DNA of 64,000 bases from Cupriavidus necator N-1. Its GTDB lineage: Bacteria; Pseudomonadota; Gammaproteobacteria; Burkholderiales; Burkholderiaceae. How positions within the stretch are numbered: position 1 is the first letter of the stretch; each line of letters opens with the position of its first letter. The translations under genes and the position numbers were made by a program. The notes beneath the pieces were generated by a model, which had not been told where the DNA came from, searched no databases, and saw nothing but the letters and a program-made list of their open reading frames with translations. The DNA lies in the NCBI RefSeq assembly GCF_000219215.1, contig NC_015726.1, positions 682,001-746,000 on the forward strand, given 5' to 3'. This document shows positions 8,055-11,210 of the stretch, in pieces.

Positions 8055-8933
8055 GTGACCCACACCCCCACGATCCTGCTGGTCGAGCCGACCTTCTACG
8101 ACGTGTCGTACAGCATCAATCCGTGGATGGATCCGGCTGCCTGGGCGCGCGACCCGCGCGGCATGCACCGCAGCGCCATGCAGTCTTTCGACGCGCTGCG
8201 CGAGGCGCTGGGCCGGGCCGGCTTTGCGGTGGAGGTGGCCCCCGGCGCGCCGGGGCTGCCCGACATGGTGTTCCCGGCCAACGCCGCGGTGGTGCTCGAT
8301 GGCCGCGCGCTGCTGGCGCGCTTCCGCTACCCGCAACGCCGTGGTGAAGAGGCGCCGTTCGCCGACATCTTCGGCACGCTGCGCGAGCGCGGCCTGCTCG
8401 ACGAAGTCGCGCTGCTGCCCGAGGGCTGCTTCCAGGAAGGCGCGGGCGACTGCATCTGGGATGCGGGCCGCGGCCACTTCTGGGCCGGGTTCGGTCCGCG
8501 CTCGTCGCATGAGGCGGCCGTGGCGGTGTCGGACTACTTCGGCAAGGACGTGGTGGCGCTGGAGCTGGCCACCGAGCAGAGCTACCACCTCGACGTCTGC
8601 TTCTGCCCGCTTTCCGGCGGCGAGGTGCTGTACTACCCGCCGGCCTTCAGCGAGGCGGCGCTGCGCGAGCTGCGCGCGCGTGTGCCGGCGCGGCTGCGTA
8701 TCGAGGCCAGCGCCGACGATCTGCGCCACTTCAGCGTCAATGCCGTCAATCTCGACGACCAGGTGGTAATGACCCGCACCACGCCGCACCTGCGCACCGA
8801 GCTGGGCCGGCGCGGCTACCAGCTGCATGAGGTCGACCTGTCGCCCTTCATGCTGTCCGGCGGCGGCGCCTATTGCATGACGCTGCGCCTGGATCGCCGC
8901 AGCGGGCCGGGCATCGCCGCGGTGGCGGCCTGA
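8055..8933 (+). CDS. Amidinotransferase-fold hydrolase (DDAH/citrulline-hydrolase-like)
   Basis: The protein is 292 residues, with AAAAAGGAG just before the ATG. It shows the guanidine-modifying-enzyme pattern: an acidic EGAGDCIWD motif, H178 in SYHLDVCF and the nucleophile-position C274 in GGGAYCMTL near the C-terminus. Family members hydrolyse dimethylarginine to citrulline, arginine to citrulline, or citrulline to ornithine. The next functional gene is ornithine cyclodeaminase, which makes proline from ornithine. A hydrolase that releases ornithine (citrulline hydrolase, CtlX-type) would therefore complete a short route; that substrate is an inference. An Lrp regulator is divergent. The stop lies 36 bp before the left edge of an inserted TnpB element. 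Confidence 0.75.
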   Translation: MTHTPTILLVEPTFYDVSYSINPWMDPAAWARDPRGMHRSAMQSFDALREALGRAGFAVEVAPGAPGLPDMVFPANAAVVLDGRALLARFRYPQRRGEEAPFADIFGTLRERGLLDEVALLPEGCFQEGAGDCIWDAGRGHFWAGFGPRSSHEAAVAVSDYFGKDVVALELATEQSYHLDVCFCPLSGGEVLYYPPAFSEAALRELRARVPARLRIEASADDLRHFSVNAVNLDDQVVMTRTTPHLRTELGRRGYQLHEVDLSPFMLSGGGAYCMTLRLDRRSGPGIAAVAA

Positions 8934-10044
8934 GCGCAGGCACCGCACCGACAACAAAGGAGACGGTCTTGACATCCGCCCCTCCCTGAAGGGAGGGGAT
9001 TCCCTCTGCAGGCGATCGATGTCCCGATCGGGCAAGGATATTTAGCGCAGCGTTCACATCGCGATCATGTACAGCACCGCATTCACTGCATACCCACTGC
9101 CTTATTCCAAGGTCTGCGATACCTTTCGGCCTCTCCGGCGGCATCGCGTCGCACGAAGAACAAACCTGGGTGGTGAAACGTTCGTCGATTTCCTCATACC
9201 ACGCGCCATGCGCAATCGCCTTGTACGCGAGCATTGTGCGGAAGGACGACCAGCCCGCATCGAGGACGGACTTCGCCATGCTGGTCCTGGCGAGGCCGGC
9301 GGCATTCACATTACCCACCGCGATGTAGTCGAAGTCCCGCACGATGCGATGCGAGAGCTTGTGCAGGAAGTCGCGCCGCGCATTGGCGATGCGCGCGTGG
9401 AGGTTCGTGGCCTGTCGTTTCTTGCGCGCCCGTTGCGCCTTGGCAAGGGCTTGCTCGAGTTGGCCAAGGTGACGCGGATTCTCGATCTTCTCGCCCGTGG
9501 AAAGCGTGGCAAGGTCCTTCAAGCCCAGATCGATGCCGACACCGCGGGCCGGGGACCGGGCGTGAGTATCGGCAACTTCGATCACGATGTTCAGGAACCA
9601 GTTGCCTCGCGCGTCGCGAGAGAAATTCGTGCCGTCCTTGATCTTGCCTTCGGGAAGAGACCTGCAGTTGAACACGCGAAACGTGTTGCCGGCAAAGCGG
9701 AATGCGTCGCCCGAGCGCTTGAGATCCCGCCCCTTGAGCGGCACCCAGCCGAGGGATCTGCGGCCGCGATAGCGCAGGTACGGCCGGCGATGCTGGCTAC
9801 GCGACTTGGCGTACTGCTCGCAAACCGCGTTGACGGTGCCGGAATGGATACGGAGTTCCTTGCTGCTGCCGGTGGTCAACACGTTCAGATCGAAACCCGT
9901 GGGCCATTTCTTGCCCCATTTCAGCGCGTGCTTCTGTGTGTCATTGCAGAAGTTCCAAACGTAGTTCACCGCGCGGCTCTGCTGATTGAGCAGGCCGTTC
10001 AGCGACTTTACCCGGTAGCGATAGACGAGAAGCATGCCGGTCAT
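8848..10044 (-). CDS. tnpB: RNA-guided nuclease TnpB (OrfB, zinc-ribbon)
   Basis: From ATG 10044 (MTGMLLVYRYRVKSLNGLL) the frame is 398 residues; ATG 10035 is an alternative start. The RuvC-like core shows D172 in GVGIDLGLKD and D329 in HDRDVNAALNIL, and the zinc ribbon is CSSC...CSEC. The usual RuvC-II glutamate (consensus VVEDLN) is replaced: the sequence reads IAVGNVNA with G244 there. A nearby EEIDERFTTQ could supply a substitute acid. There is no stop codon inside the element: the frame reads through the right-end hairpin into host DNA and stops antisense within the amidinotransferase-like gene, so about 40 C-terminal residues are host-derived. TnpB uses an RNA from the element right end as guide. 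The typical length is about 370-400 residues. Confidence 0.85.
   Translation of the reverse strand: MTGMLLVYRYRVKSLNGLLNQQSRAVNYVWNFCNDTQKHALKWGKKWPTGFDLNVLTTGSSKELRIHSGTVNAVCEQYAKSRSQHRRPYLRYRGRRSLGWVPLKGRDLKRSGDAFRFAGNTFRVFNCRSLPEGKIKDGTNFSRDARGNWFLNIVIEVADTHARSPARGVGIDLGLKDLATLSTGEKIENPRHLGQLEQALAKAQRARKKRQATNLHARIANARRDFLHKLSHRIVRDFDYIAVGNVNAAGLARTSMAKSVLDAGWSSFRTMLAYKAIAHGAWYEEIDERFTTQVCSSCDAMPPERPKGIADLGIRQWVCSECGAVHDRDVNAALNILARSGHRSPAEGIPSLQGGADVKTVSFVVGAVPALRPPPRRCPARCGDPGAASCNRRRRRTA
8979..8998. repeat. Right-end hairpin of the TnpB element
   Basis: CCCCTCCC, loop TGAA and GGGAGGGG form a perfect 8-bp stem next to the RE boundary. In related elements this region folds as the recognition hairpin and forms part of the omega/reRNA 3' scaffold, with the guide copied from adjacent host DNA. 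Confidence 0.8.
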
Positions 10045-10086
10045 TCTAAATTGGGATTGCTTGCTGCCGGCAGCACTCCTTTCACT

Positions 10087-10106
10087 CCCCGCCCTGAAGG
10101 TCGGGG
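10087..10106. repeat. Left-end hairpin of the TnpB element
   Basis: CCCCGCCC, loop TGAA and GGTCGGGG form a stem with one mismatch, the same design as the right-end hairpin. It sits 18 bases before the ocd start codon, and could also affect ocd translation if present on its mRNA. Confidence 0.75.
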
Positions 10107-10112
10107 TTTCTC

Positions 10113-10124
10113 GGAGCAAGTCTG
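10113..10124 (+). promoter_or_regulatory. Replacement ribosome-binding site for ocd supplied by the TnpB element end
   Basis: GGAG at 10113-10116 lies eight bases before the ocd ATG and belongs to the inserted element. The native AGGAG (8958-8962) is now about 1.16 kb upstream. The spacing of the new site is normal, so ocd may still be translated, although its transcript must now cross or start within the element. Confidence 0.55.
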
Positions 10125-11210
10125 ATGAAAAGCACCGCCCGATCCCTGTTCCTGGACGCCAGCGACGTGGCCCGCCTGGTGGCCGCCATCGGCCCGCAGG
10201 CCGCTATCGTGGATCTGGCCGGGCAGGTCCGGCAGGCCTTCCTGCGCTGGCACGATTTCGACAAGTCCGCGCGGCTGGCCAGCCATTCCGCGCGTGGCGT
10301 GATCGAGCTGATGCCGGTCAGCGACGGCGTCCAGTATGCATTCAAGTATGTGAACGGCCATCCGCGCAATGCGCTGCACGGCATGCCGACGGTGATGGCC
10401 TGCGGCTTGCTGGCCGAAGTGGAAACCGGCTTCCCGCTGATGCTGGCCGACCTGACGCTGGCCACCGCGCTGCGCACCGCGGCCACCTCGGCGCTGGCGG
10501 CACGCGCCATGGCGCGGCCCGGTGCGGCGACCATGGCGCTGATCGGCAACGGCGCGCAGGCCGAGTTCCAGGTGCTGGCCTTTCAGGCGATGCTGGGCGT
10601 GCGCGAGATCGCCGCCTATGACATCGATCCGGCCGCCACCACCCGGCTGATGCGCAACCTTGCTGGCGTACCCGGTCTTTCGATCCGCCGCGCCGGATCG
10701 ATCGAGGCCGCCCTGGCCGGGGCGGACATTGTCTCAACGGTCACCGCCGACAAGACTCGCGCCACCATCCTCACGCCGGAAATGGTGCGGCCTGGCATGC
10801 ACCTTAATGCGGTAGGCGGCGACTGCCCCGGTAAGACTGAACTGCATCCCGATATCCTGCGCCGCGCGCGCATCGTGGTGGAGTACGAAGCCCAGACGCG
10901 CATCGAAGGCGAGATCCAGCAGTTGCCCGCCGACGCGCCGGTGACCGAGCTGTGGCAGGTGCTGGCCGGCCACGCGCCCGGCCGCGCGGCGGCGGACGAG
11001 GTGACCGTATTCGATTCGGTTGGGTTTGCGCTGGAAGACTACGCCGCGCTGCGCTGGCTCTACGCCGCAGCGCAGGCGCACCGGGCGGGCAGGGCGGTTG
11101 AACTGGTGGCGATGCCGCCGGATCCGCGCAACCTGTACGGGTGGATGATGGCGCAGGCCGACGGCGACGAAGCCGGGCTGGCAACGCCCCGGCAGGCGGC
11201 AGTGGCCTGA
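10125..11210 (+). CDS. ocd: Ornithine cyclodeaminase
   Basis: The protein is 361 residues, close to the family norm of about 350. It has the OCD/mu-crystallin layout: an N-terminal substrate region with RGVIELMPV and KYVNGHP, a central Rossmann fold for NAD (MALIGNGAQAEFQ at about 137-149) and the catalytic-region motif HLNAVGGDCPGKTEL. The enzyme converts L-ornithine to L-proline and ammonia with NAD recycled in the active site. It originally followed the amidinotransferase-like gene directly; a TnpB element now separates them and has displaced the native ribosome-binding site. Distal relatives act as alanine dehydrogenases or lysine cyclodeaminases, but the length and DCPGKTEL motif favour ornithine. 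Confidence 0.9.
   Translation: MKSTARSLFLDASDVARLVAAIGPQAAIVDLAGQVRQAFLRWHDFDKSARLASHSARGVIELMPVSDGVQYAFKYVNGHPRNALHGMPTVMACGLLAEVETGFPLMLADLTLATALRTAATSALAARAMARPGAATMALIGNGAQAEFQVLAFQAMLGVREIAAYDIDPAATTRLMRNLAGVPGLSIRRAGSIEAALAGADIVSTVTADKTRATILTPEMVRPGMHLNAVGGDCPGKTELHPDILRRARIVVEYEAQTRIEGEIQQLPADAPVTELWQVLAGHAPGRAAADEVTVFDSVGFALEDYAALRWLYAAAQAHRAGRAVELVAMPPDPRNLYGWMMAQADGDEAGLATPRQAAVA

Follow-up and report, generated by a model that had tools for sequence, protein, structure and literature searches.

The ocd insertion and its empty site

The window analyzed here, a stretch of 64,000 nucleotides from the 8.48 Mb genome of Cupriavidus necator N-1 (contig NC_015726.1, positions 682,001 to 746,000), contains a TnpB-only transposable element of the IS200/IS605 type, inserted directly before the start codon of ocd, a gene of the ornithine cyclodeaminase family. 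The element separates ocd from its own Shine-Dalgarno (SD) sequence, supplies another, and carries, antisense to tnpB, a long open frame that ends on the ocd start codon. The features of the locus, in window coordinates, are as follows.

8055..8933, plus strand: ctlX-like gene of the DDAH family, upstream of ocd (open reading frame, ORF; PF19420)
8848..10044, minus strand: tnpB, 398 aa, without the stop that relatives have in the right end, so that the frame enters host DNA antisense to ctlX (ORF; PF01385, PF07282)
8949..8968, minus strand: expected guide stretch flanking the right end, with complementarity to the leader and native SD of ocd, as predicted from the available account of ISDra2 (PMC8612924)
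8956..8962, plus strand: native SD of ocd, AAAGGAG, separated by 6 bases from the insertion point (sequence; empty site L022)
8969..10124, minus strand: the whole TnpB element, between base -1 and the ocd ATG, with the target neither duplicated nor lost (empty-site comparisons)
8969..9010, minus strand: right end, inner limit approximate, with a hairpin identified by eye, ending in TCAA on the element strand; in relatives the TAG stop of tnpB lies in the loop
9067..10125, plus strand: antisense open frame of 352 aa in the codon register of tnpB, its terminal TGA overlapping the ocd ATG (TGATG) (ORF; family comparison)
10045..10124, minus strand: left end (LE), 80 bp upstream of tnpB (family comparison)
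10113..10116, plus strand: GGAG brought by the left end, 8 bases upstream of the ocd ATG at 10125 (sequence)
10125..10129, minus strand: target and expected transposon-associated motif (TAM), TTCAT, the reverse complement of ATGAA at the ocd start (border comparison)
10125..11210, plus strand: ocd, intact (PF02423, E 1.9e-106)

A search with Ocd in 60 genomes of the genus yielded 30 loci with DNA; by blastn, the window element is absent from all 29 other ocd loci fetched. The nearest relative with an empty site (G029, locus L022; Ocd identity 97%) has the junction ..CCAAGGAGACGGTC|ATGAAAAGC, and the occupied junction in the window reads ..AAAGGAGACGGTC|TTGACATCC...GGAGCAAGTCTG|ATGAAAAGC. In the relative, ..CCGACAGCCAAGGAGACGGTC abuts ATGAAAAGC; the corresponding stretch of the window is identical but for two bases and is broken at that point. 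The insert in the window is 1156 bp long (8969-10124), and the bases at both joints permit no alternative placement.

The element, the gene order and the replacement GGAG at ocd are real, as the initial annotation had it, with corrections. The native SD had been placed eight bases from the ATG, and the GGAG of the element at the same distance. The latter does lie 8 bases before the ATG, but the empty site of the relative reads AAGGAG-6-ATG and, as in the window, the native spacing from GGAG to ATG is 6. Comparison of the junction with related strains, which had been suggested as a check, found a matching upstream stretch in this nearest relative, and the claim was not refuted there.

Exact empty counterparts exist for two other occupied sites, in an SDR gene (G041, L199) and in a methylmalonyl-CoA mutase gene (L223 in G041; L224 in C. 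necator N-1). At all three sites, the element lies between base -1 and the ATG, with no base lost or duplicated.

Target, left end and antisense frame across the family

The family was sampled through 109 loci (L051-L159) from genomes of the genus and named genomes, the latter contributing 80 of 142 relatives. We set aside 8 loci that were distant or cut off, 9 without a recognizable LE, 7 duplicates or same-site pairs and 3 without a CAT border (L069, broken; L099, anchor misplaced; L145, TTCAC = GTGAA), leaving 82 unique copies with a clear border. The border search demanded CAT, so that the evidence lies in the preceding bases only: TCAT, the reverse complement of ATGA, is found at the LE border in 81 of the 82 copies and TTCAT in 57. 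Two copies excluded from the counts, L145 and L268, have the border TTCAC rather than TTCAT, outward GTGAA, and possibly represent insertions at GTG starts. Relatives of 41-50% identity were rejected as family members; by eye, no LE of this kind was seen in them, and their borders are unmapped. L100 of Polynucleobacter, a low-GC host, encodes a TnpB that is 71% identical and has no recognizable LE of the family type.

An ORF of at least 40 aa starts from the reverse-complement ATG in 70 of the 82 copies. These 70 were scanned against Pfam and the 12 shorter ones left out; 53 of the 82 copies are located at a gene recognized by Pfam, with a match compatible with that ATG as the start, including genes for urease alpha, RtcB, HypD, LacI, HscB, porin and thiolase. 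The start calls were judged by reading Pfam coordinates, with no blind rule, and include one match under the Pfam cut-off (L142) and one CCAT border (L144). In the genome of C. necator N-1, the LE motif has 7 exact matches, every one directly beside TCAT (GGAG belongs to the motif searched, and its presence in these matches is no evidence). Five of them open a frame of at least 177 aa from the ATG; of the others, one opens 46 aa and is presumably located inside the end of a gene, and one opens 18 codons only. One solo left end in this genome (L179, C4:1436173), the rest of the element replaced by other DNA, still directly precedes the start of a 177-aa ORF.

A GGAG lies no more than 18 bases from the ATG in 70 of the 82 copies. 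Between the border and the anchor CTCC (GGAG when read outward) there are 6 (30 copies), 8 (18), 9 (33) or 7 (1) bases; the sequence of the anchor is CTCC in 69 copies, TCCC in 7 and another in 6, and no bases of the LE vary less than its two C's (82/82 and 81/82). Pairing of the LE leaders with the anti-SD has a mean of -5.68 kcal/mol, and 94% reach -4.5 or lower, compared to -3.11 and 25% for 2000 random 20-mers and -4.79 and 58% for 76 annotated genes. The replacement SD is a property of the element family, so that a lucky end sequence, which the initial annotation had offered as an alternative to selection, is unlikely; a single lucky junction at ocd is rejected by the repetition of the pattern. 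The ancestral leaders average -4.70 kcal/mol, with 52% at or below -4.5, at the 50 start sites whose right end could be read, and -3.75 kcal/mol, with 28%, at 25 other sites. Because of the 52%, a recognizable SD was displaced at about half of the start sites, much as ordinary genes have one (58%). In seven copies (L083, L093-L095, L105, L106 and L142, of Polaromonas, Hydrogenophaga, Giesbergeria and an uncultured member of the Burkholderiales), the ends are TTCCC-like, with outward GGGA or similar replacing GGAG, and five of these copies are still at Pfam-supported starts.

The hint of the initial annotation that ocd might be transcribed through tnpB antisense proved the most fruitful: in most copies, a frame directed toward the host gene, its stop overlapping the ATG, is open along most or all of the length of the copy, and this frame is under selection to stay open and ends on the host start codon. 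The LE ends in TG in 70 of the 82 copies, which together with the A of the host ATG gives TGATG, and the frame is open from the antisense ATG to TGATG in 57 of 79 copies, at 11 different lengths. The LE, measured from the border to where tnpB matches, has a length of 2 mod 3 in 71 of the 82 copies, across 15 lengths (77-239), including those of a clade with an additional small ORF in this region; the remaining 11 copies have 10 LE lengths. In nine copies from Malikia and other sources (L082, L084-L089, L092, L105), a small ORF, ribbon-helix-helix-like by eye, is located between the left end and tnpB, and in five of the nine the antisense frame is open through it to TGATG.

Stops were analyzed in 90 aligned copies, 11 of them outside the 82 (L100, L158, duplicates and broken copies were excluded); the count of frames open to TGATG, over 79 copies, refers to the 82 minus L061, L074 and L075, which are absent from the alignment. 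On the ORF side of the antisense ATG, only 6 antisense stops occur in 29,318 codons, and the 334-codon body is stop-free in 84 of the 90 copies; on the far side, there are 35 in 1,642 codons. The antisense ATG itself corresponds to CAT at the His of HDRD in all 90 copies, an invariance that may be partly held by the scaffold of the right-element RNA (reRNA), the neighboring GAT codons being likewise little varied. By parsimony over the 90 copies, third-position changes to A number 2 of 95 at Ser TCN and 7 of 225 at Leu CTN, compared to 430 of 1665 in the six other four-fold families (p 9e-10 and 1e-18, respectively, for copies that are related); CTA is rare in host genes as well.

The deficit of TCA is confined to the frame relevant for stops (7, 711 and 158 occurrences by frame), so that avoidance of a cleavage or TAM word, TCA being common in the other frames, is ruled out as its cause. 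Nor does host codon bias account for it: the downstream host genes have TCA at 27 of 526 TCN codons, with 4.9% of the other four-fold families ending in A and no TCA deficit, whereas tnpB at the same 53 loci has 3 of 793, with 11.5%. Within the LE, in-register antisense stops are found in 11 of the 82 copies against 65 and 35 in the other frames, and sense stops in 28 copies in the tnpB frame against 20 and 80, counts that reject sense read-through into tnpB as the reason for the LE frame. Because of the 2-mod-3 length of the LE, the scarcity of codons that give antisense stops, and the boundary of the deficit, the antisense frame is under selection to stay open and is not a by-product of GC-rich codons. 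The peptides are 57.5% identical in antisense against 81.2% for TnpB in sense (600 random pairs), and Pfam gives no hit to the antisense frame of the window with E values up to 1; by this low identity and lack of a match, the openness of the frame is kept and the sequence of the predicted peptide is not.

None of 13 control TnpBs has a stop-free antisense body, and the TCA counts are 31/195 in the controls versus 2/1258 in the family. All 10 controls with a GC content at third codon positions (GC3) of at least 0.6 have at least two antisense stops (family mean GC3, 0.76), which makes them a clean test of the GC by-product idea. Three of 16 controls gave no call (L008, L018 and L171, with TCA at 3/15, 3/14 and 0/12). 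For replication, we collected 72 loci (L237, L238, L245-L314), of which 7 lacked an LE or CAT border, 30 had been seen before and 35 were new. The new copies have TCAT in 35 cases, TTCAT in 28 and CTCC in 32; CAT at the His and no antisense stop in all 35; an in-frame arrangement in 32; the antisense frame open to TGATG in 29; and a host ORF of 100 aa or more in 30. This replication tests one part of the family, since 34 of the 35 belong to the genus that includes Burkholderia sp. MS389, and several have a tagged gene in common with another copy (for example, L259, L273 and L281), so that they are not 35 independent events.

A proposed insertion transparent to translation

An untranslated kilobase ahead of an operon gene invites Rho-dependent polarity, and both the polarity and the restart of the host gene would be taken care of by a strand without stops that ends in GGAG...TGATG. 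The element targets (T)TCAT, the reverse complement of a start ATGA(A), and, because of this target, often lands between the SD of a gene and the start codon, with the ATG and all that it encodes unaltered. The left end becomes the new leader, with GGAG mostly 6, 8 or 9 bases upstream of the ATG, and its terminal TG forms TGATG with the A of the host ATG. The strand running in the host direction, antisense to tnpB and in register with its codons, is kept stop-free, presumably through selection on expression of the host gene; we propose that ribosomes could thereby follow RNA polymerase through the element, terminate at TGATG and, helped by GGAG, restart at once on the host ATG; transcription of the antisense frame and entry of ribosomes into it are assumed here. 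Overlaps of the TGATG type couple translation by termination-reinitiation, according to the available part of a study of coupled genes (PMC6728339). An insertion transparent to translation is, in our judgment, the best explanation of the data and probably the correct one. The combination of start-codon targeting, a ribosome-binding site of its own and an antisense strand serving as a conduit for ribosomes would then keep even operon genes expressed, which we also regard as somewhat more probable than its opposite.

If this is true, a mobile element can sit inside transcription units cheaply by relaying translation, instead of splicing out or avoiding genes, and an open antisense frame, of a kind readily put down to GC-rich codons, gains a function. 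Some gene starts in Burkholderiales would owe their leaders to transposons, a point to consider in annotation and in the prediction of expression.

Several observations weigh against this interpretation. The full frame to TGATG is missing in 22 of the 79 copies; no SD precedes the antisense ATG (mean -1.33 kcal/mol), and neither an outward sigma-70 promoter nor a terminator pattern was found when looked for. One distant TnpB (L171) has only a single antisense stop in 330 codons; the Polynucleobacter copy, excluded from the 90, has 17, and with its low GC forms a natural contrast to the family. The GGAG of the LE is paired in the minimum free energy (MFE) fold, which is no better than shuffles (z 0.06). 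The anchor used to search for the LE favors GGAG, with at most 3 mismatches allowed, and the entire CTCCGAGAAAC block is conserved, so that GGAG is possibly needed for transposition; it may be kept for translation, or for transposition too. Such conservation of the block as a unit is what survivorship alone would predict: a TTCAT target, ATGAA being common at starts, the purging of insertions within genes, and GGAG as an SD-like recognition sequence of the transposase. Within the target, no position stands out apart from TCAT and a favored additional T. In the background, a 100-kb stretch of a C. basilensis plasmid, annotated starts account for 26 of 584 ATGA sites and 12 of 168 ATGAA sites (the median coverage of a plasmid by gene tables of this kind is about three quarters; Burkholderia replicons in PLSDB and C. 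metallidurans, with almost no annotation, were rejected as background). Without the sites inside genes, the ratio of starts to intergenic sites is 26:56 for ATGA and already 12:15 for non-coding ATGAA; the family ratio, 53:29, exceeds the former (p 4e-5) but is not clearly above the latter (p 0.07). Because of this last comparison, the location at gene starts is mostly as expected from the TTCAT target and the loss of harmful insertions, which accounts for much of the excess, and any extra preference is moderate at most. Survivorship nevertheless leaves unexplained the in-register avoidance of antisense stops, the 2-mod-3 length of the LE and TGATG, and the spacer varies (6, 8, 9) yet remains within the SD window; as the whole explanation we consider it unlikely, though the strongest of the competitors.

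Less likely still is a real protein encoded by the antisense frame and overlapping tnpB, with the end on the host ATG as a by-product. The length of the frame and its invariant ATG (the controls have CAC in 10 of 13) would fit, but the low identity in antisense and the lack of a Pfam match in the window do not. About equally improbable is a role in anti-polarity only, the open frame shielding the transcript from Rho and the host gene being translated de novo at GGAG, uncoupled from TGATG. The SD strength of the LE leaders is in line with this, as are 7 of the 22 incomplete copies, which are in frame and stop-free but without TGA; against it, the LE frame is kept to the last codon and TGATG is found in 70 of the 82 copies. 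TldRs are RNA-guided repressors with an inactivated RuvC and stable single-copy domestication. That TnpB and its guide regulate the tagged gene in this manner is very improbable: the guide expected from what is available on ISDra2 (PMC8612924) is complementary to the native leader, but the family has many copies per genome and an alternative catalytic glutamate (Ealt) in all 79 proteins, which also rejects the identification of these TnpBs as TldRs.

Returning to the transparent insertion, ribosomes might enter the antisense frame from the right end. The outward right end starts with TTG at the native-SD start position, and in the copies read that frame closes after 6-7 codons; being out of frame in the copies shown, the TTG is rejected as the start of the antisense frame, and reinitiation from the TTG frame into the antisense frame is a guess.

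TnpB, its mover and related systems

The window TnpB, aligned to that of ISDra2, matches PF01385 (68.7 bits) and PF07282 (77.4 bits), with RuvC and zinc ribbon. In the right-end loop, CAG replaces the usual TAG stop, and about 40 residues of the protein derive from host DNA. The canonical RuvC glutamate is replaced by Gly in all 79 TnpBs (74 by pattern, 5 by eye), and Ealt is located six residues before the first CxxC in each; such a placement, ExxxxxxCxxC with loss of the canonical Glu, is described for some TnpBs and Fanzors (PMC10711439, in the accessible portion). The D-E-D RuvC triad, in its Ealt form, can thus be traced in 79/79 proteins, as in RNA-guided TnpBs. Because Ealt is always present, TnpB is predicted to be active and not a dead regulator. 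The RuvC-I motif is DLG here, unlike the DPG of pro-Fanzors.

The element resembles the TnpB-only (IS1341-type) members of IS200/IS605 in its OrfB_IS605 and zinc-ribbon domains, insertion without duplication 3' of a short target of 4-5 bases (three empty sites; TCAT in 81/82) and TCAA right end. In the DNA MFE fold the LE forms a hairpin (z -0.80; 39 of 200 shuffles fold equally well), and a candidate hairpin at the right end is visible in the sequence. The element differs from these members in the start-codon target, the outward GGAG in the LE and the open antisense frame, and no matching TnpA was identified in C. necator N-1. ISDra2 and IS608 likewise insert precisely beside a short target that doubles as the TAM of TnpB, but their targets, TTGAT and TTAC, are different, and neither start codons nor SD sequences are mentioned in the available part of their description (PMC8612924). 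In Amoebophilus asiaticus, some insertion sequences (ISs) are too near a start codon for the native SD, and joint IS-gene transcripts were found at 9 of 10 tested loci; a start-codon target, an SD in the IS end or an antisense frame are not described in the part of that report at hand (PMC3196728).

As in IStrons, an IS is rendered harmless to the host gene, but IStrons splice out as RNA, according to the accessible text (PMC4227781), whereas here the message would be translated through. A search of 8700-10400 against Rfam (E up to 0.1) gave no match, be it to reRNA or an intron, and with no group I intron the identification as an IStron is rejected. With coupled overlapping gene pairs, as far as described in the excerpt available (PMC6728339), the element has in common a stop codon that overlaps the next start and an SD that still lies within the first frame, an arrangement found in the window copy and in the 57 of 79 copies open to TGATG, where the first frame is predicted to be translated; unlike in those pairs, this first frame comes from a transposon gene read in antisense. 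The remark nearest to the present case is that on A. asiaticus (PMC3196728). No precedent for elements that target start codons or end in an SD was found among titles and abstract starts of the CC-licensed literature, which is weak evidence, many subscription papers on TnpB being outside it.

Among 14 Y1 TnpA matches in C. necator N-1, 13 adjoin copies of another TnpB family, and none is tied to the ends of the window element. This second IS605-like family (L008-L020) encodes TnpA and TnpB and has about a dozen near-identical copies; its target is TTGAC or CTGAC (by eye, 5 copies) and, by eye, its LE end has no SD, and we rejected its TnpA as the mover. The right end of the second family terminates in GATGTCAA, as does that of the window element.

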